From a virus, in the IMG/VR virus record IMGVR_UViG_3300021185_001574, positions 1 through 22,891 of that record: a DNA stretch of 22,891 bases; one strand, 5' to 3'. A program made the translations under genes and the position numbers. The notes under the pieces are model-generated. The model was not told the DNA's origin, made no database searches, and saw nothing but the letters and a program-made list of their open reading frames with translations. Positions 6,828-21,317 of this stretch are shown piece by piece; the stretch's first letter is position 1, and each line of letters starts with the position of its first letter.

Positions 6828-7603
6828 ATGTTTCGTTGTGTGTGTCGGGTAAGTGGATGGGACTTGATTTCACAGAAAGATTGCGTAGAATTATTCCTCA
6901 TGATAATTACTTCACAGGAACATATACTGACTGTGTTTATGACTCAAATTTCAAGATGGGTGAGCCTGAGATGACTTATCATCCTGTCCTTGATACGAAA
7001 CCATATGGAGACCAAGAAAGTCTACAGAGGAGACAATTTTTTAGGTATAGTGATGAAGACATTTTGGACACCGATGGAAATCATAGAGATATGGAAGGTA
7101 GTCGTAACAAATGGTTGAAGAAATTTAGAGACAAGAGTATCAACTGGCACAAACAAATACTAATCCACAATCATATGATGAAAAATATTCCAGAGTGTGA
7201 TATTGTGATAAGGAGTCGGTTTGATGCAATTGCATCTGAAAAGATTGATTGGCAATCGCATATACAGAAGTCACATGATGAAGAAATACCTATAGGATTC
7301 AATACAATCAACATTGCAAAAAACTCGAAGAGGTATTACCATCAGTTGACTAAGATGCAGGATGGCGCAGTATTTTATATCAACGATGCATTGATTATAC
7401 ATCCATATAAGTCTTGGGATTGCGACTTAGTTGATGAACTATATAAAAACAAAGAACTAAAGGGCGCTGAAGAGGGTTGGTATCAAATTCTATCAGAACC
7501 AAATAATCATTACCACCTAACACATGTTGGTGGTGTTTATCTGGAAGCCTATCACGAAAACATTATGGATAAAGATGCAAGCCTACATAATCACTCTTCT
7601 TGA
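6818..7603 (+). CDS. Putative glycosyltransferase (LPS type)
   Basis: This protein of about 261 residues has the first strand NVSLCVSGKW at residues 3-12 and a central CDIVIRSRFDA segment. Both recall bacterial surface-glycan glycosyltransferases that begin with a LSGQ-type motif and carry a VIRxRxD motif. No ATG stands at a sensible position. A GTG at 6818 gives a 10-nt overlap with the previous gene and a complete first strand, whereas ATG 6857 would delete that strand and an in-frame ATA sits at 6824. The acidic R-F-D segment could be the metal/nucleotide site. The 3' end overlaps the GT25 gene by 29 nt. Family assignment is by pattern only, so the confidence is moderate. Confidence 0.55.
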   Translation: MSINVSLCVSGKWMGLDFTERLRRIIPHDNYFTGTYTDCVYDSNFKMGEPEMTYHPVLDTKPYGDQESLQRRQFFRYSDEDILDTDGNHRDMEGSRNKWLKKFRDKSINWHKQILIHNHMMKNIPECDIVIRSRFDAIASEKIDWQSHIQKSHDEEIPIGFNTINIAKNSKRYYHQLTKMQDGAVFYINDALIIHPYKSWDCDLVDELYKNKELKGAEEGWYQILSEPNNHYHLTHVGGVYLEAYHENIMDKDASLHNHSS

Positions 7604-8273
7604 TGACCGTGACTCTCGTGATGCATCTAATCGCGTGGTCAAGTCTATCGATGACACGGGTTCAGAACTTGAACCAATAATCTTTCGTGCGACTACACCA
7701 GAGTCTCTCGAAGAAGATATGTGGTTGAAACTTGATTGGACATATCCAACCAAACCAAGTCAAGATGGTATGGACTTTGCGACAGGACTATACCTTCAAC
7801 ACTATCAGACCGCAGACCTACAGAATCGTATTGCGTGTATGGTGAGTCACATGCGTCTGTGGCAGAAGTCAATCGACCTTGACGAACCGATTATGGTTCT
7901 GGAACATGATGCACTCTTCACTCGCAAGTTTAGATTTTTGGACTTGACAGATGGGTTCAAAGGTGGTATAGTAGGACTCAATGACCCTCGTGGTGCAACT
8001 CGAAAGGCGAGTTTGTTTCATTCGAAGGTCAGTTCGCGTATGGGGTTACAACCAGTTCCAGACCTTGAGGACAACTATCCTCACGGACTCGCTGGAAATT
8101 CTGCATATATAATTACACCAAAAGGTGCAAAGAAAGTATTAAAAATGACAGAGAGTATTGGAATGTGGCCCAATGATGCAATCATGAACAGACAGTTCTT
8201 TCCGTGGATGCAAGTGGTCTATCCTTACTATACAACTATTCAGAGGGGGTTGGTCTCAACCACAACGTCATGA
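7575..8273 (+). CDS. Glycosyltransferase family 25-like protein (copy 1)
   Basis: This protein of about 232 residues has the layout of family 25 (LPS/collagen-type) glycosyltransferases. An N-terminal strand (AYIITLLDDRDSR) is followed by IACMVSHMRLWQ near residue 87, the acidic motif EHDA at 110-113, and a C-terminal GNSAYIITPKGAKKVL segment. These proteins move a hexose from an NDP-sugar. ATG 7575 is used because the upstream extension overlaps the previous gene out of frame. The next gene is a tandem relative with the same motif order, and the two overlap as ATGA. Confidence 0.75.
   Translation: MQAYIITLLDDRDSRDASNRVVKSIDDTGSELEPIIFRATTPESLEEDMWLKLDWTYPTKPSQDGMDFATGLYLQHYQTADLQNRIACMVSHMRLWQKSIDLDEPIMVLEHDALFTRKFRFLDLTDGFKGGIVGLNDPRGATRKASLFHSKVSSRMGLQPVPDLEDNYPHGLAGNSAYIITPKGAKKVLKMTESIGMWPNDAIMNRQFFPWMQVVYPYYTTIQRGLVSTTTS
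7944..7972 (+). promoter_or_regulatory. Predicted intragenic sigma70 promoter
   Basis: TTGACA at 7944-7949 and TATAGT at 7967-7972 have a 17-nt spacer. The element lies inside the first GT25 gene and could boost the distal glycosyltransferase and sulfotransferase genes. Activity is inferred from match quality only. Confidence 0.4.
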
Positions 8274-8917
8274 AAGCAAAAGTAATTACACTAATCAACA
8301 ATTCATCGAGTATCGATGTCGCTGAACGATGTATCGAGTCAGGCAAAAAACACGGTGTGACTGTAGAATGGTTTCGTGCTATCACGCCTAATGACGAACC
8401 ACTCGAACTACTAGAACGTGAACGTATTCCACCAAGCGCATTTGACGAGAGATACTCTCGTAATCTGAATTGTATCTCTGCATTCCTGTCACACTATTCA
8501 TTGTGGAAAGAATGTGCATCAGGTAAAGAGACCTATGCAATCTTTGAACACGATGCGGTCATCACCGCACCCCTCCCAACCCAACCATTTCAGTATGCGA
8601 TGAACATTGGTGCGCCATCATATGGTAATTGGAATACGCCAGAGACTCTTGGTATCAATCCACTAACAACCAAGAAATACTTTCCAGGCGCACATGCGTA
8701 TATGGTCACGCCCGCAGGCGCGAAGAAACTCGTAGAGGCTGCACCCAAGTTCGCGAAACCAACTGATGTGTATCTGAACCTTGATACTTTTCCGTGGTTA
8801 CAGGAATACTATCCATTCTGTGCAGAGGCGAAAGATAGTTTCACCACGATTCAGGTAGAAGAAGGTTGTCGCGCAAAGCACAACTGGAAGAAGGGGTATA
8901 AGATTATCGATGCGTGA
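8270..8917 (+). CDS. Glycosyltransferase family 25-like protein (copy 2)
   Basis: This 215-residue protein has the same motif order as its upstream neighbour: AKVITLINN at the N-terminus, CISAFLSHYSLWK near 68-80, EHDA at 93-96, then AYMVTPAGAKKLVE and FPWLQEYYP. The HAY-V-TP-GAKK segment matches copy 1 closely, indicating tandem duplication and divergence. It probably adds a different sugar in the same chain. ATG 8270 makes an ATGA overlap with copy 1. The stop overlaps the following gene by 8 nt. Confidence 0.75.
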   Translation: MKAKVITLINNSSSIDVAERCIESGKKHGVTVEWFRAITPNDEPLELLERERIPPSAFDERYSRNLNCISAFLSHYSLWKECASGKETYAIFEHDAVITAPLPTQPFQYAMNIGAPSYGNWNTPETLGINPLTTKKYFPGAHAYMVTPAGAKKLVEAAPKFAKPTDVYLNLDTFPWLQEYYPFCAEAKDSFTTIQVEEGCRAKHNWKKGYKIIDA

Positions 8918-9560
8918 AGTATTTCTAACTGGATGTGATATCAACACAGAGTGGCAACTCCCGTGGTTCATTCATAACTTTGAACGACACAATGAAGGTC
9001 GCCTCATCATTGCTGACTTCGGTATGTCCGAAGAGATGTTGAGTCACATATCCATGTATCATATCATTCCTATCAAATCACAGGAAAAGGGTTGGTTCAA
9101 GAAACCCCGTGCGATACTGACAGCCTCACGTCTCAGAGATGTTGACAAGGTTTGTTGGATTGATACTGATTGTGAAATCAAAGGGAATATAGAACATATC
9201 TTTGACCTGTCTGAACCAAACAAACTTGGTATGGTAGAGGATAGACCGTGGACTGCTCGAAGGAATGAGATGGGTAAATGGTATAATTCTGGTGTTGTTC
9301 TGATTGAAGGAACACCTACAATACTTGGGGACTGGGCAAGTAACTGTGTTAGTAATCCAGTTCAGGGTGACCAAGAGGTTCTCTACTTCATGATGGGTGG
9401 AGATGAGTTGAAAAAACTTGCATATATAAATCCATTACCTCACACATATAATACATTGCGTATCGACTATCAAGATGGTATCGCGGTGAGGAAGCCACTA
9501 ATTGTTCACCACACGGGTGAAAAAGGTAATCAAGCAATAAGGAAACAAATGAATGTATGA
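8910..9560 (+). CDS. Glycosyltransferase family 8-like protein
   Basis: This 216-residue GT-A fold protein has a DxD motif in VCWIDTDCEI (D85, D87) for the metal and nucleotide-sugar. GKWYNSGVVLIEG follows near residue 122, and a C-terminal HHTGEKG (H200-H201) corresponds to the metal-binding HxxG region of family 8 retaining transferases. It is shorter than most family members and has no membrane segment, so it would act in the cytoplasm on a precursor or a virion protein. It overlaps GT25 copy 2 upstream and the nuclease gene downstream by 8 nt each. Confidence 0.7.
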   Translation: MREVFLTGCDINTEWQLPWFIHNFERHNEGRLIIADFGMSEEMLSHISMYHIIPIKSQEKGWFKKPRAILTASRLRDVDKVCWIDTDCEIKGNIEHIFDLSEPNKLGMVEDRPWTARRNEMGKWYNSGVVLIEGTPTILGDWASNCVSNPVQGDQEVLYFMMGGDELKKLAYINPLPHTYNTLRIDYQDGIAVRKPLIVHHTGEKGNQAIRKQMNV

Positions 9561-9969
9561 ATATAGATGTAATGTCGTGAAGATTATTGACGGCGACACA
9601 GTTGACGTTGATATCGACCTCGGCTTTGGTGTGTGGATGCGTAAACAACGTATTCGAATGTATGGTATTGATACGCCCGAGTCACGCACACGCGACCTCG
9701 AAGAAAAAAAATATGGTCTTGCTGCAAAGGACTTTCTGACTGGTTTGTTGGATGACGAAGGCGGTATTGTTTTGAAAACACATAAGGACGGTAAGGGTAA
9801 GTTTGGTCGTATTCTGGGTGAGTTGTGGAGAACCACAAACTACGCAGACCAATCAATCAATGACTATATGATTGAGAAGCACCATGCGGTTCGTTACATG
9901 GGTCAGTCCAAAGATGACATTGAAGAACAACACCTAGAAAATAGAAAACATGTTTCTCTCGTCGAGTAA
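9553..9969 (+). CDS. Staphylococcal-nuclease-like (thermonuclease) protein
   Basis: This 138-residue single SNase domain has DGDT (D15), R35, DTPE (D40, E43) and GKFGR (R86). These match the calcium and catalytic residues D21, R35, D40, E43 and R87 of staphylococcal nuclease, so the active site looks complete. There is no signal peptide, so it should act in the infected cell, cutting DNA or RNA with calcium. Its place between a glycosyltransferase and a sulfotransferase, with overlaps of 8 and 20 nt, is unexpected for a nuclease. It may simply be carried along as phage DNA-degradation cargo. Confidence 0.88.
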   Translation: MYEYRCNVVKIIDGDTVDVDIDLGFGVWMRKQRIRMYGIDTPESRTRDLEEKKYGLAAKDFLTGLLDDEGGIVLKTHKDGKGKFGRILGELWRTTNYADQSINDYMIEKHHAVRYMGQSKDDIEEQHLENRKHVSLVE

Positions 9970-10651
9970 AGAAATAGGGTTCATCCATGTTCCCAAATCT
10001 GCGGGAACAACCATCAAGGGTGAACTAGAAAGAACTCTTGATAACGATTATCATATCGGTAGAGGTAAGTCAGTCGCACAAGAAATACGATATCTCAAGG
10101 GTGAGAATGACGGGTCTCCTGCATTCCATTCTGAGAAGATAACGCATCGGGAGAGTCATGACCTCGCACAATATCCTCATCACCTTGAGAGACATCTTCT
10201 CGAGAAACGTAATGGGAAATGGTGTGATTACAAAATCTTTGCGGTGATACGAAACCCGTGGGATAGATTGATGGGTGCGTTTCTGTATCGGGTGATGAAG
10301 GACGGCCCTGTGTGGGAGAAAGATGGAGACTATCTGAATGACTTCAACTTCGAATACTGGTTGAAGGAAGAACATGAGAAACAATGGCCTCACATCTTTG
10401 TTCACCCGTTATCAACATGGGTCAAAGAGACAGACGCGATTATGAAGTTTGAGAACTTAAAAAACGATATACATATTCTAAATGATTATCTAGGGTTCGA
10501 ACTCGACTTGGGTATTCATAGAAATAAAAGTTTTAAACACCTGATGGGAATTAGAAACAGTAACGATTTGATTCAACCTCACATGAAGAAATGGATTACA
10601 GAAAAGTATAGTGATGAGATTGAGATGTTCGGATATGGAGACTATGAATGA
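9950..10651 (+). CDS. PAPS-dependent sulfotransferase (third)
   Basis: This 233-residue protein has the 5'-phosphosulfate loop FIHVPKSAGTT at 11-21 and the 3'-phosphate strand AVIRNPWDRLMGAFL near 98-112. It is a Sulfotransfer_2-type enzyme but is clearly more distant from the two tandem copies upstream: the insert between the motifs is longer and histidine-rich, and the C-terminus is unrelated. It probably sulfates a different acceptor. It overlaps the nuclease gene by 20 nt and forms ATGA with the next gene. Confidence 0.83.
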   Translation: MFLSSSKEIGFIHVPKSAGTTIKGELERTLDNDYHIGRGKSVAQEIRYLKGENDGSPAFHSEKITHRESHDLAQYPHHLERHLLEKRNGKWCDYKIFAVIRNPWDRLMGAFLYRVMKDGPVWEKDGDYLNDFNFEYWLKEEHEKQWPHIFVHPLSTWVKETDAIMKFENLKNDIHILNDYLGFELDLGIHRNKSFKHLMGIRNSNDLIQPHMKKWITEKYSDEIEMFGYGDYE

Positions 10652-17928: not shown

Positions 17929-18849
17929 ATGTCTTTTGCAAATCTAAAATCTAATCGTCCTGATATTTCTAAACTGGCATCTGCTGCCCAAGAAATGTCT
18001 GGCACAAAACAAACCAAAAACAAATATGAAGACCTACGTTTCTGGAAACCAACTGTCGATGACGCTGGTAACGGATACGCAGAGATTCGTTTTCTTCCTG
18101 CTGTCGAAGGTCAGGAACTCCCGTGGGTTCGTTACTTCGACCACTTCTTTAAAGGCCCGACTGGTCAATGGTATGTTGAGAAGTCTCTGACTACTCTGGG
18201 TAACAATGACCCTGTGAGTGAATACAACTCACGTCTTTGGAACTCTGGTATTGATGAGGACAAAGAGCTTGCTCGTAAACAGAAACGCCGTCTGCATCAC
18301 GTCTCTAACATCATTGTTATCAGTGACCCTGCCAATCCTCAGAATGAGGGTAAGGTATTCCTGTATGACTATGGTAAGAAAATCTTTGATAAGGTTATGG
18401 ACAAGATGCAACCAGAGTTTCCTGGCGAAACACCAATCAATCCGTTTGACTTCTGGGCTGGTGCGAACTTCCAACTGAAGATTCGTAATGTTGCAGGATA
18501 TCGTAACTATGACAAGTCAGAGTTCAAAGCACCCGCTGCGTTGTTCGATGCCGATGAGACCAAACTCGAAGCAACCTACAATCAGTTGCACGAGGTCACT
18601 GAGTTCACCGATGCATCAAGTTACAAAACCTATGATGAGTTGAAAGCACGTCTCGAAACTGTTCTGGGTCAAGCAACAGGTGGTGGTGCAACTGTCAAGA
18701 ACGAAGCACTGACACAGACTGCCGAGACTGTTGAACCAAAAGCAACAGAACCGCAAGTCATTCAGTCTGCGCCTGAACCTGCCATCGCATCAACCGATGA
18801 CGATGATGACACACTGTCTTACTTCGCGAAACTCGCTGCGGAAGACTAG
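17929..18849 (+). CDS. 32: Single-stranded DNA-binding protein gp32
   Basis: This 306-residue protein matches T4 gp32 in order. It has a basic N-terminal cooperativity segment (LKSNRPDISKL) and the OB-fold core with RFWKP, EIRFLP and the GQWYVEKSLTT region. NIIVISDP and NEGKVFLYDYGKKIFDK (T4 NILVVKDP and NEGKVFKYRFGKKIWDK) follow, then GANFQLKIRNVAGYRNYDKSEF and an acidic C-terminal tail (DDDDDTLSYF) that recruits replication partners. It coats single-stranded DNA in replication, recombination and repair. It has no cysteine at all, so the zinc site of T4 gp32 is absent. It ends at a strong terminator. Confidence 0.95.
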   Translation: MSFANLKSNRPDISKLASAAQEMSGTKQTKNKYEDLRFWKPTVDDAGNGYAEIRFLPAVEGQELPWVRYFDHFFKGPTGQWYVEKSLTTLGNNDPVSEYNSRLWNSGIDEDKELARKQKRRLHHVSNIIVISDPANPQNEGKVFLYDYGKKIFDKVMDKMQPEFPGETPINPFDFWAGANFQLKIRNVAGYRNYDKSEFKAPAALFDADETKLEATYNQLHEVTEFTDASSYKTYDELKARLETVLGQATGGGATVKNEALTQTAETVEPKATEPQVIQSAPEPAIASTDDDDDTLSYFAKLAAED

Positions 18850-18874: not shown

Positions 18875-18901
18875 AAAGGGTGGCTTCGGTCACCCTTTTT
18901 T
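18875..18901 (+). terminator. Intrinsic terminator after gp32
   Basis: The stem is GGGTGGC/GTCACCC around a UUCG tetraloop closed by C-G, preceded by AAA and followed by six T. It lies between the convergent gp32 and tape-measure-like genes; on the minus strand its U-tract is weak (TTTC). Confidence 0.9.
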
Positions 18902-20441
18902 AATTAGGCTTCTTGTCGGTATCGTCGGTTGCAGCCGAGTAGTCTTGAATAAATGAGTTTGATGACTGATAAACTGCACCAGTGCTATTGTCCACATAGT
19001 TCATTCCTGCAACACCTTGTTCTGTTGCCATCTTATTGATTGCATCGAGACGTGACTTCAATGCATCACCCTGTAGGTTTTCTTCTCTAATTCTCTGTAG
19101 TGCTTGATTTCTGTCTTTTAAGAACTTCTTTTGTTCATCAGACAAATCAGCTTTATTTACATCTTGAAAAGCATTGCCTTGCACTTCACTGTCGTCTGCT
19201 ATTCCAAATTTGTCTTTTATAAAGTTTTTTACGTTTTGAACCAATCTGTCGAATAGTTCACCAACGAAGTCAAAAATACTCTTTACTTTTGGAATGATAC
19301 TTTCTTTTACATAATTGTCAGCAAAGGAAAAAAGTTCTGCAACCCCGTCTCTCAACCAACCAAGTTTAAGCCATTCTACAAACGCTTGAAGAGTTGGTGA
19401 ATTATTTGCTAATTCATTTAAATCTTCACCCAAGACAAATCCCGTCAAAAGGTCAATCGCTTCGTTGAATGCATCACCTATCTTTCCAACGACTTTATCG
19501 AAAATATTTATAATTTTTACACCAAGTTCCAAGTCGAAATATTCAAATACTTTTCTTAACCCACCTGTTATGAGTTCAACAAAGTCAAAGATAAAGAAGT
19601 TGAGGACACCTCGAACACCTTCTAGGAGACCGTTGACAATTCTTTGTCCAATATCACCCTCACCAGTAATCAGTTCTTTAATGAAATTAAATGCAAAAAC
19701 AAATGGAGCTGAGAATACTCTACCAATTATTCCAACAAAGAAACGAAGAAATCGTCCGAAGACATTTAAAAAATTACCAATGGCTCTTACAATAGGATTT
19801 TTATCAGCTCCAAGTCCAAGTTGCTTTAAATTGTCTCTCAAGAATTTGAATGGTTCAGTTATTCCCTTAAATAATTGAGTAAGCGGTTCGAGAATACCAC
19901 CAGCGAGTGACAATCTTAGTGTTGCACCTAGTTTAGCCATTTTAGTGGTAAAGTCTGAAACTTTGAGTTCTTTTAGACCTTTCACACCAGCATTTATCTC
20001 AGCTCCAATCTTGGTAAACCCAATCATGAAATTTTTGAATGGTGCGAGAATCCGTGTTCTCATACGACCAAAGAATCCTTTCCTACCATTCTTATCACCA
20101 CCAGCGATTCTTTGAAACAAATCTTTATAGAAGTTTGCATAGGCTGATGCAAGACCAACAATAGCCCCGACTGCACCCGCACCCGCAACACCAAGTATTC
20201 CGCTTGGAGACAGAATATCTTTAGCACTCACCTTTGCTAATGGTGCAAGTGTTTCTTTTGCCTTTTTATCTTTATCCCTTTGGGATTCAAGTGCATCAAG
20301 TTTACTACGGTCATCACGTTTGAACATCTCAGCAAATTTGCCGACAATTTTACTAAGAACTTCGCGGTTCTCTTTTGCGTCTTCTTGTTGTTGTTCACTG
20401 TTATGTCTTAGTTGTTCAGTGACGGCGTTCATCTCAGCCAT
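18900..20441 (-). CDS. Putative tape measure / tail structural protein
   Basis: This 513-residue protein has a charged, coiled-coil-prone N-terminus (about 1-65) and a glycine/alanine-rich hydrophobic segment (ILGVAGAGAVGAIVGLASAY, about 82-101). A long run of amphipathic helices rich in F, I, L, G and K follows (about 110-420), then a soluble charged C-terminus. This layout and its position directly after gp26 and the small frameshift ORF, where the tape measure stands in most long-tailed phages, suggest it is the tail length ruler (T4 gp29 role, 590 aa). Sequence identity to gp29 is not evident to me. A baseplate-associated structural protein is the alternative. Its start overlaps the small ORF's stop. 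Confidence 0.6.
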   Translation of the reverse strand: MAEMNAVTEQLRHNSEQQQEDAKENREVLSKIVGKFAEMFKRDDRSKLDALESQRDKDKKAKETLAPLAKVSAKDILSPSGILGVAGAGAVGAIVGLASAYANFYKDLFQRIAGGDKNGRKGFFGRMRTRILAPFKNFMIGFTKIGAEINAGVKGLKELKVSDFTTKMAKLGATLRLSLAGGILEPLTQLFKGITEPFKFLRDNLKQLGLGADKNPIVRAIGNFLNVFGRFLRFFVGIIGRVFSAPFVFAFNFIKELITGEGDIGQRIVNGLLEGVRGVLNFFIFDFVELITGGLRKVFEYFDLELGVKIINIFDKVVGKIGDAFNEAIDLLTGFVLGEDLNELANNSPTLQAFVEWLKLGWLRDGVAELFSFADNYVKESIIPKVKSIFDFVGELFDRLVQNVKNFIKDKFGIADDSEVQGNAFQDVNKADLSDEQKKFLKDRNQALQRIREENLQGDALKSRLDAINKMATEQGVAGMNYVDNSTGAVYQSSNSFIQDYSAATDDTDKKPN

Positions 20442-20589
20442 TTTGTTTTGCTCTTTCTTTTTCTTCTTCTAGGTGTTGTAATAACATACTGACATATATT
20501 TCCCTCTCCCACGGCATCATCATATCCAGTTCCGTTAATGAGTATTTAAAGTGTTGCATCATAGAAAAGTTCGTATTATAATGATTCAC
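20434..20589 (-). CDS. Small ORF, probable -1 frameshift extension of gp26
   Basis: If translated independently from GTG 20589 this is a 51-residue protein. It has an N-terminal polar part, a central SLTELDMMMPWEREIYVSML and a charged helical tail ending in the first codons of the tape-measure gene. The P-W-E-x-E-x-Y segment resembles, from memory, the second tail-assembly-chaperone ORF found before tape-measure genes. The same frame is open from 20616, where a slippery heptamer ends gp26. A -1 slip would therefore fuse 60 residues (CTG ATA AGC onward) to gp26. No good ribosome site precedes the GTG. Confidence 0.65.
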   Translation of the reverse strand: MNHYNTNFSMMQHFKYSLTELDMMMPWEREIYVSMLLQHLEEEKERAKQNG

Positions 20590-20593
20590 TAAA

Positions 20594-20622
20594 CTCTCAT
20601 GGGAGAGGCTTATCAGAAAAAA
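20594..20622 (-). promoter_or_regulatory. Predicted programmed -1 ribosomal frameshift signal
   Basis: On the minus strand, T TTT TTC in the zero frame of gp26 (complement of 20616-20622) is followed at once by the TGA stop. After an 8-nt spacer comes a hairpin CTCTC-CCAT-GAGAG (complement of 20594-20607). Heptamer type, frame, spacer length and stem are all as expected for -1 frameshifting. Confidence 0.65.
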
Positions 20623-21317
20623 TCAGCGACCCCTCTCAGTTCTTGTTTATTATCTGAACTACAATTCGAACAATTGAATTCGATGTCATGTTTCAGTGTA
20701 GGCATTTGTTCTACAAAGTCTGATACCATAGACAACTGTGCGGTTGTCATGGATTCAACAAATTCTTTTACTTCGACTGATTTAACTTCGTTGGTGTTGA
20801 TTCTCTCGTCAGGAGTGATGATTGCACCAATACTTTTTTCAATTAGTTCAAATGCAAATTTACTTTCCTGTTTACCCTCTTCATATCCATCAACGACTTC
20901 ATTGAATTTTGGGTATGTCATCTCAATAGAAATCTCTGGGGTAAGTTCAATTAGTTTACTCACATCTGATTTTGGAATCTTGATGTCACCAACAGGGACA
21001 ACCACTTCATTCTGATGTTCACACTCAGAACACTTCACACCAATCGTTGATGTTTCACCAACAGATTTGGAACGAATTTGTAAGAACATATATTCAACAT
21101 CAAAGGTTGTCAGTGATTGTGGATTTATATCCTCATACACACAGGCAACAACCGTGTCTACCATTGCTCTCATTGCTTGTTTCTGGTCTTGCGACTCAAA
21201 TGCCATAAGAAGAATTTTTTCTTCCTTGACAAGATACGGCCGATATGATATTACACTTCCTGTGGAAGGGATTTCTAGTTCATACTTCGGTGTATCATTT
21301 AACTTAGGTAATGCCAT
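20613..21317 (-). CDS. 26: Baseplate hub protein gp26-like
   Basis: This 234-residue protein resembles the gp26/T4 baseplate family of marine T4-like phages, with the N-terminal pattern ALPKLNDTPKYELEIPSTG and RPYLVKEEKILLMA near residue 26. Two CxxC pairs (C96/C99 in KCSECEHQN and C216/C219 in NCSNCSSDN) could form a zinc ribbon. In T4, gp26 acts in building the baseplate hub. A GGAG ribosome site precedes the ATG. The last codons GAT TTT TTC TGA carry a -1 slippery heptamer, so a longer fusion form is likely. Assignment is by family pattern; an alternative description is a tail assembly chaperone. Confidence 0.72.
   Translation of the reverse strand: MALPKLNDTPKYELEIPSTGSVISYRPYLVKEEKILLMAFESQDQKQAMRAMVDTVVACVYEDINPQSLTTFDVEYMFLQIRSKSVGETSTIGVKCSECEHQNEVVVPVGDIKIPKSDVSKLIELTPEISIEMTYPKFNEVVDGYEEGKQESKFAFELIEKSIGAIITPDERINTNEVKSVEVKEFVESMTTAQLSMVSDFVEQMPTLKHDIEFNCSNCSSDNKQELRGVADFF

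Follow-up and report, generated by a model that had tools for sequence, protein, structure and literature searches.

A gp26-like gene that ends in a run of T residues, with a small ORF following in the −1 frame, raises the question of whether the two are separate genes or the short and long products of one gene read in two frames. The arrangement lies on the minus strand of a 22,891-base record of an uncultured virus (the window, that is, the whole stretch of DNA analysed), which we take to be a marine T4-like myophage. Genes on that strand stand in the order DNA end protector (gp2 type), tail-tube-family protein, gp26, small ORF and a gene for a 513-aa protein. The gp26-like gene (20613–21317, 234 aa) matched the Pfam family PF12322 T4_baseplate (E 1.5e-53, residues 10–234, 182 bits against a cut-off of 24.5) and the PHROG baseplate hub family phrog_150 (E 1.2e-55). 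It ends GTC GCT GAT TTT TTC TGA TAA, with the slippery heptamer T TTT TTC (20622–20616) in frame directly ahead of its stop codon TGA (20615–20613), exactly where an earlier note on this DNA had placed it. From the heptamer, the −1 frame (ORF 20434–20622) is open to a TGA at 20436–20434 and, as that note said, reaches the start of the next gene; it holds 62 sense codons including the two phenylalanines, or 60 past them, and overlaps the next gene (18900–20441) by 8 nt. The 513-aa product of this gene is likely a tape measure protein, a weak assignment by sequence that rests on a match to phrog_1535, tail length tape measure (E 1.7e-6), and on four weaker tape-measure PHROGs. The −1 ORF directly adjoins the tape-measure-like gene, as the G/GT type of tail assembly chaperone (TAC) requires, the tape-measure match being weak and spread over five families. 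We put a probability of about 0.88 on the reading that this locus serves a marine T4-like myophage as its G/GT-type tail assembly chaperone cassette, working by a −1 slip with probable RNA stimulators, in which gp26 would be the short form (G) and the −1 ORF would encode the extension (T).

Other genes were recorded in the window. A gp32-type single-strand DNA-binding protein gene (17929–18849, plus strand; phrog_224, E 1.2e-107) converges with the tape-measure-like gene across a gap of 50 bases. Also on the plus strand are two adjoining genes (7524–8917), each a weak match to phage 2OG-Fe(II) oxygenases (phrog_61), and a gene (9950–10651) weakly matching galactose-3-O-sulfotransferase (phrog_3347) that adjoins an endonuclease-family gene (9553–9969).

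The window holds 32 TTTTTT runs, both strands counted. A T run alone is thus not rare, and the slip site is significant because of its position, frame and conservation. Relatives were gathered from IMG/VR and phage records, giving 340 loci in which the end of gp26 is complete; the identity of their gp26 to that of the window spans 22–90%, and the loci share ancestry, so that probabilities calculated from them are overstated. T TTT TTN was kept in 339 of the 340 (236 of these 339 being distinct), the exception being Pseudomonas phage Cygsa01, in which the heptamer is lost (ATT TTC). Among the distinct loci the last letter was C in 125, T in 76, A in 23 and G in 12. The codon ahead of the heptamer's first full codon (GAT, AGT, AAT, TCT, GCT or GGT) ended in T without exception. 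The first Phe codon of the heptamer was always TTT, compared with about 70% TTT in the rest of gp26; the second switched between Phe and Leu with the T hexamer constant, indicating that the DNA string is held, not the protein. The −1 frame was uninterrupted in all complete relatives, and the check on conservation proposed in the earlier note therefore came out in favour of frameshifting on both counts, heptamer and frame. Residues L5, S6, H7 and L10 of the −1 frame were invariant in 70 of 70 distinct close relatives, in which they were written with 3, 4, 2 and 5 different codons, respectively. Invariant residues with synonymous codons indicated protein selection in the −1 frame, starting five codons past the slip. 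On these sequence comparisons, we regard −1 frameshifting at the gp26 end as near certain.

Bacterial −1 signals of the dnaX type consist of a Shine–Dalgarno (SD)-like sequence about 10 nt upstream, a heptamer and a downstream stem. The same three parts are present here; unlike the dnaX-type signal, the heptamer is U-rich and the stem is long-range in the window's clade. A GGAGGG-like stretch is conserved 7–9 nt upstream of the heptamer. In the window it reads GAGAGGGG (20630–20637, minus strand), lies 7 nt upstream of the heptamer and pairs with the anti-SD at −8.1 kcal/mol. Mean pairing of the element to the 16S tail was −6.8 kcal/mol, compared with −1.3 kcal/mol for randomly chosen positions of the same genes, and −5 kcal/mol was passed by 85% at the element against 9% in the background. 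Its Glu codon was GAG in 96 of 115, against a background of 30% (p 7e-32 if the loci were independent). The element likely promotes slippage.

On the downstream side, the earlier note had described an 8-nt spacer and a 5-bp hairpin with a 4-nt loop. This description is exact for the window, in which CTCTC(CCAT)GAGAG (20607–20594) begins after the spacer; the hairpin occurs only in the window and in its closest relatives, however, and the conserved structure is a long-range stem that shares its 5′ arm. As a stimulator the local hairpin was rejected: 70% of its cells were paired, its covariation was below that of shuffles, its middle pair was broken in 53 of 60 distinct relatives, and its variable pair ranked 4138 of 4234 column pairs.

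The long-range stem has 9 bp and closes about 88 nt. Its 5′ arm, CCTCTCCCA (20600–20608, minus strand), starts 7 nt past the heptamer, within the usual 5–9 nt spacing, and pairs with TGGGAGAGG (20503–20511), which lies in the codons of the PWERE motif. We examined this stem in 116 distinct relatives that, like the window, are of the LSH type (columns 15–23 against 112–120); 93.4% of cells were paired, and 58 double changes were found compared with 21 after shuffling (0/500). Two pairs varied on both sides, one coupling Leu CTC/CTT with Glu GAG/GAA and the other coupling the third base of codon 4 with Arg AGG/AGA. After background correction they ranked 1 and 4 of 4234 variable column pairs, and 0 of 300 tree-aware simulations reached either. 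The covariation, which falls on synonymous sites, supports the stem because the pairing, CCTCTCCC/GGGAGAGG, was named from the window alone before any alignment; over all column pairs, the best stem pair has an E no better than 0.52 against the global simulated background. RNAalifold picked the long-range stem unprompted. Folding energy in the window was unremarkable just downstream (z −1.22 over 78 nt) and reached z −2.54 with the far arm included; the mean over 70 loci was z −1.6 against codon-drawn controls, a null that ignores position. A comparison with Rfam gave no match.

Cyanophages with Met at codon 5 showed a local 10-bp hairpin (columns 13–22 with 34–43), 82% paired, with a covariation of 0.265 compared with 0.170 (0/500). 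Its pair 21–35, which couples the silent base of an Ala codon with an E/V/A change at codon 11, ranked 2 of 3227 and was reached in 0 of 300 simulations. In a further set of cyanophage loci (L095–L122, LFH at codons 5–7), a candidate third downstream fold pairs CTCTTCC with GGAGGGG around a 10-nt loop in more than one register. By eye, the CCTCTC arm of the window is a candidate for pairing with the upstream GAGAGGGG. Downstream RNA structures likely stimulate slippage. We lean, with modest confidence, towards a scheme in which the long-range 9-bp helix, whose far arm is formed by the invariant PWERE codons some 90 nt off, stimulates the slip, cyanophages swap in the local hairpin and keep the heptamer and the SD-like element, and two paralogous genes replace the device in the T4 branch. 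No mention of either the SD-like element or the RNA stems was found in the searchable literature, outside which the full text of Vladimirov et al. (2022) lay.

Profile comparison (hhalign) related both reading frames to T4 proteins. The window's gp26 matched T4-type gp26 (E 9.6e-19) and the first ~200 residues of T4-type gp51 (E 1.7e-9), and T4-type gp26 and gp51 matched each other (E 6e-11). The −1 peptide matched residues 199–250 of T4-type gp51, which are its last 52 (E 5e-10), and the −1 ORF matched phrog_634, baseplate hub assembly catalyst (gp51), with an E of 6.8e-26. The small ORF also matched the C-terminal end of the gp26 PHROG, some members of which may be recorded as fusions. The homologies of gp26 and the −1 peptide to gp51 indicated that T4 gp51 is built like gp26 with the extension added. 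This gp51-family architecture, a gp26-like N-terminus followed by a C-terminal domain with FYxxN..YSL..M.P.ER, is found here as well, its two parts fused solely via the frameshift. The earlier note had also likened the locus to a placement of T4 gene 51 after gene 26, which proved incorrect: the two T4 genes are divergent, on opposite strands, and the T4 long form is a separate gene. Genes 26 and 51 are likewise separate and divergent in Shewanella phage Thanatos-2 and Aeromonas phage Aes012. One gene with a frameshift would thus yield here what T4 makes from two. Sullivan et al. (2010; PMC3037559) described cyanophage and marine vibriophage gp51 without the first ~200 residues; these proteins would be short because gp26 supplies the ~200 residues through the frameshift.

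Databases annotate the small ORF as a separate gp51, and a joined gp26–small-ORF gene was annotated in none of the cyanophage and other phage records examined. Such an annotation would be right if the small ORF were an independent gene, with its own start or with termination–reinitiation where gp26 stops, the T run being incidental. An ATG does overlap the gp26 stop (TAATG or TGATG) in Vibrio, Caulobacter, Delftia, Rhizobium and Pseudomonas relatives, Cygsa01 keeps such an ATG without the heptamer, and many cyanophages have an ATG at codons 4–6 of the −1 frame. In the window, however, a −1-frame TGA stands directly ahead of the heptamer and the first ATG, GTG or TTG is codon 11, so that the segment past the slip is unreachable by a normal start; yet the preceding LSHESL is conserved family-wide with synonymous changes. 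With a threshold of −5 kcal/mol or better, none of 193 internal −1-frame ATGs (codons 20/21) had an SD, compared with 63% for gp26's own start by the same measure. The cyanophage ATGs at codons 4–6 had none either (0/56), and the SD-like element upstream of the heptamer is too distant from the −1-frame ATGs to be their ribosome site. A conserved start with a ribosome site, which the earlier note had named beforehand as evidence against frameshifting, was thus not found among these ATGs, and an independent start was rejected for the window's clade. Five of six sampled phages with a stop-overlapping ATG still keep the heptamer (the two occur together in the Vibrio, Caulobacter, Delftia and Rhizobium relatives), and in T4 gp51 itself the T domain follows a gp26-like N-terminus in one continuous frame. 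We consider an independent small-ORF gene very improbable. In Cygsa01, loss of the slippery run with retention of the overlapping ATG suggests a switch to termination–reinitiation, and the pattern in the overlap-ATG relatives indicates that reinitiation there may supplement the frameshift or take its place. The overlapping ATGs lie near 2500–2515 in L175, L176, L178, L179 and L180 and at about 2465–2495 in L182 (Cygsa01). As regards annotation, gp51 of Phage C48C1 (L083, 3699–3887) starts at codon 29 of the −1 ORF and the conserved LSHDSL block is cut off, and in records L084, L175 and L183 the small ORF is wholly unannotated.

T runs can be slippery for polymerases, and many relatives have seven or more T. 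An RNA polymerase that added or dropped a U at the run would also open the −1 frame. The run is only six T and then C in the window and in 125 of the 236 distinct loci, however, and T TTT TTA and T TTT TTG also occur; short runs and these variants fit the ribosomal heptamer rule rather than one based on run length. Ribosomal frameshifting is also typified by an SD-like element and by RNA pairing at a suitable distance downstream, as seen at this locus, and transcriptional slippage is barely credible here. A real frameshift could also produce baseplate-hub parts or hub-assembly factors rather than chaperones in the lambda G/GT sense. T4 gp26 and gp51 are annotated as a hub protein and a hub-assembly protein, reports on the presence of gp26 in the hub conflict (PMC3004832), and the fold match of gp26 to a known TAC is sub-significant. 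The AlphaFold model of gp26 (pLDDT 90.9) gave Foldseek probabilities of 0.72 and 0.57 against the HK97 tail assembly chaperone 2ob9 at E ~1, a suggestive resemblance short of proof, and no match in the PDB at E < 0.001, and a profile sequence search of the PDB with gp26 returned nothing of note. On the other hand, T4 gp51, described as essential and of unknown function, is needed yet does not occur in the particle, and a table lists both gp26 and gp51 as hub assembly chaperones (PMC3004832). As in G/GT systems, the genes run tail tube, gp26, T, tape measure and the design is one of a short and a long form, and an independent 2022 study, as cited in PMC10885494, identified T4-like tail assembly chaperones. 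The hub reading has a small but real chance of being correct.

Conservation, the lack of an independent start, the homology of the fusion to T4 gp51 and the gene order all support the programmed −1 frameshift and the G/GT-type chaperone cassette put forward in the earlier note, and a chaperone role of gp26 and its fusion is likely. From the DNA features we infer both the slip and the fraction of ribosomes that take it. Most ribosomes would stop at the gp26 TGA and give the short form, and a fraction would shift by −1 on T TTT TTC and translate another 60 codons beyond the two phenylalanines, producing gp26 fused to a gp51-type C-terminal domain. The SD-like stretch 7–9 nt upstream and the downstream RNA structure, which would be the stem closing about 88 nt in the window's clade and the local 10-bp hairpin in cyanophages, probably promote this slippage. 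The short form would then cover the tape measure protein made from the next gene, with tail-tube or initiator parts recruited by the long form.

G–T frameshifting is conserved in long-tailed phages, with T4 listed as the exception in a 2016 review (PMC5009743). Like lambda gpG/gpGT, the locus has a short gene that ends in a slippery heptamer, a −1 extension and an adjoining tape measure gene, and would make a short form and a rarer long form (PMC5009743). It differs from lambda in that no sequence similarity was shown, the heptamer is U UUU UUN, an SD-like element and a long-range or local RNA stem are present, and the G domain belongs to the PF12322 T4_baseplate family with Cys pairs. Tail assembly chaperones of T4-like phages were identified by Vladimirov, Gautam and Davidson (2022; Virology 566:9–15), as cited in PMC10885494 and PMC12846349. 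According to PMC10885494, citing that study, some of them have a short gene and a long fused gene, and PMC12846349 reports that poly-T slippery sites occur in the TAC-N genes of T4-like phages; the locus resembles them in both respects, and these reports make the frameshift and chaperone reading one of an already known kind. The Vandenendeviridae/Andersonviridae TAC (Pseudomonas phage Adele) likewise has a conserved slip motif (GTTTTT in the Adele group) and, ahead of the tape measure gene, a −1 frame without interruption; it belongs to another phage group, and the accessible part of PMC12846349 mentions no RNA structure or SD evidence for it.

The signal described here is concrete, has three separable parts and is easily assayed. 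In many marine phage genomes this gene has probably been wrongly split in the annotation. The results support reading T4 gp51 as the long chaperone form, and the same protein pair would then be made in two ways, by frameshift or from two paralogous genes, within one phage lineage.
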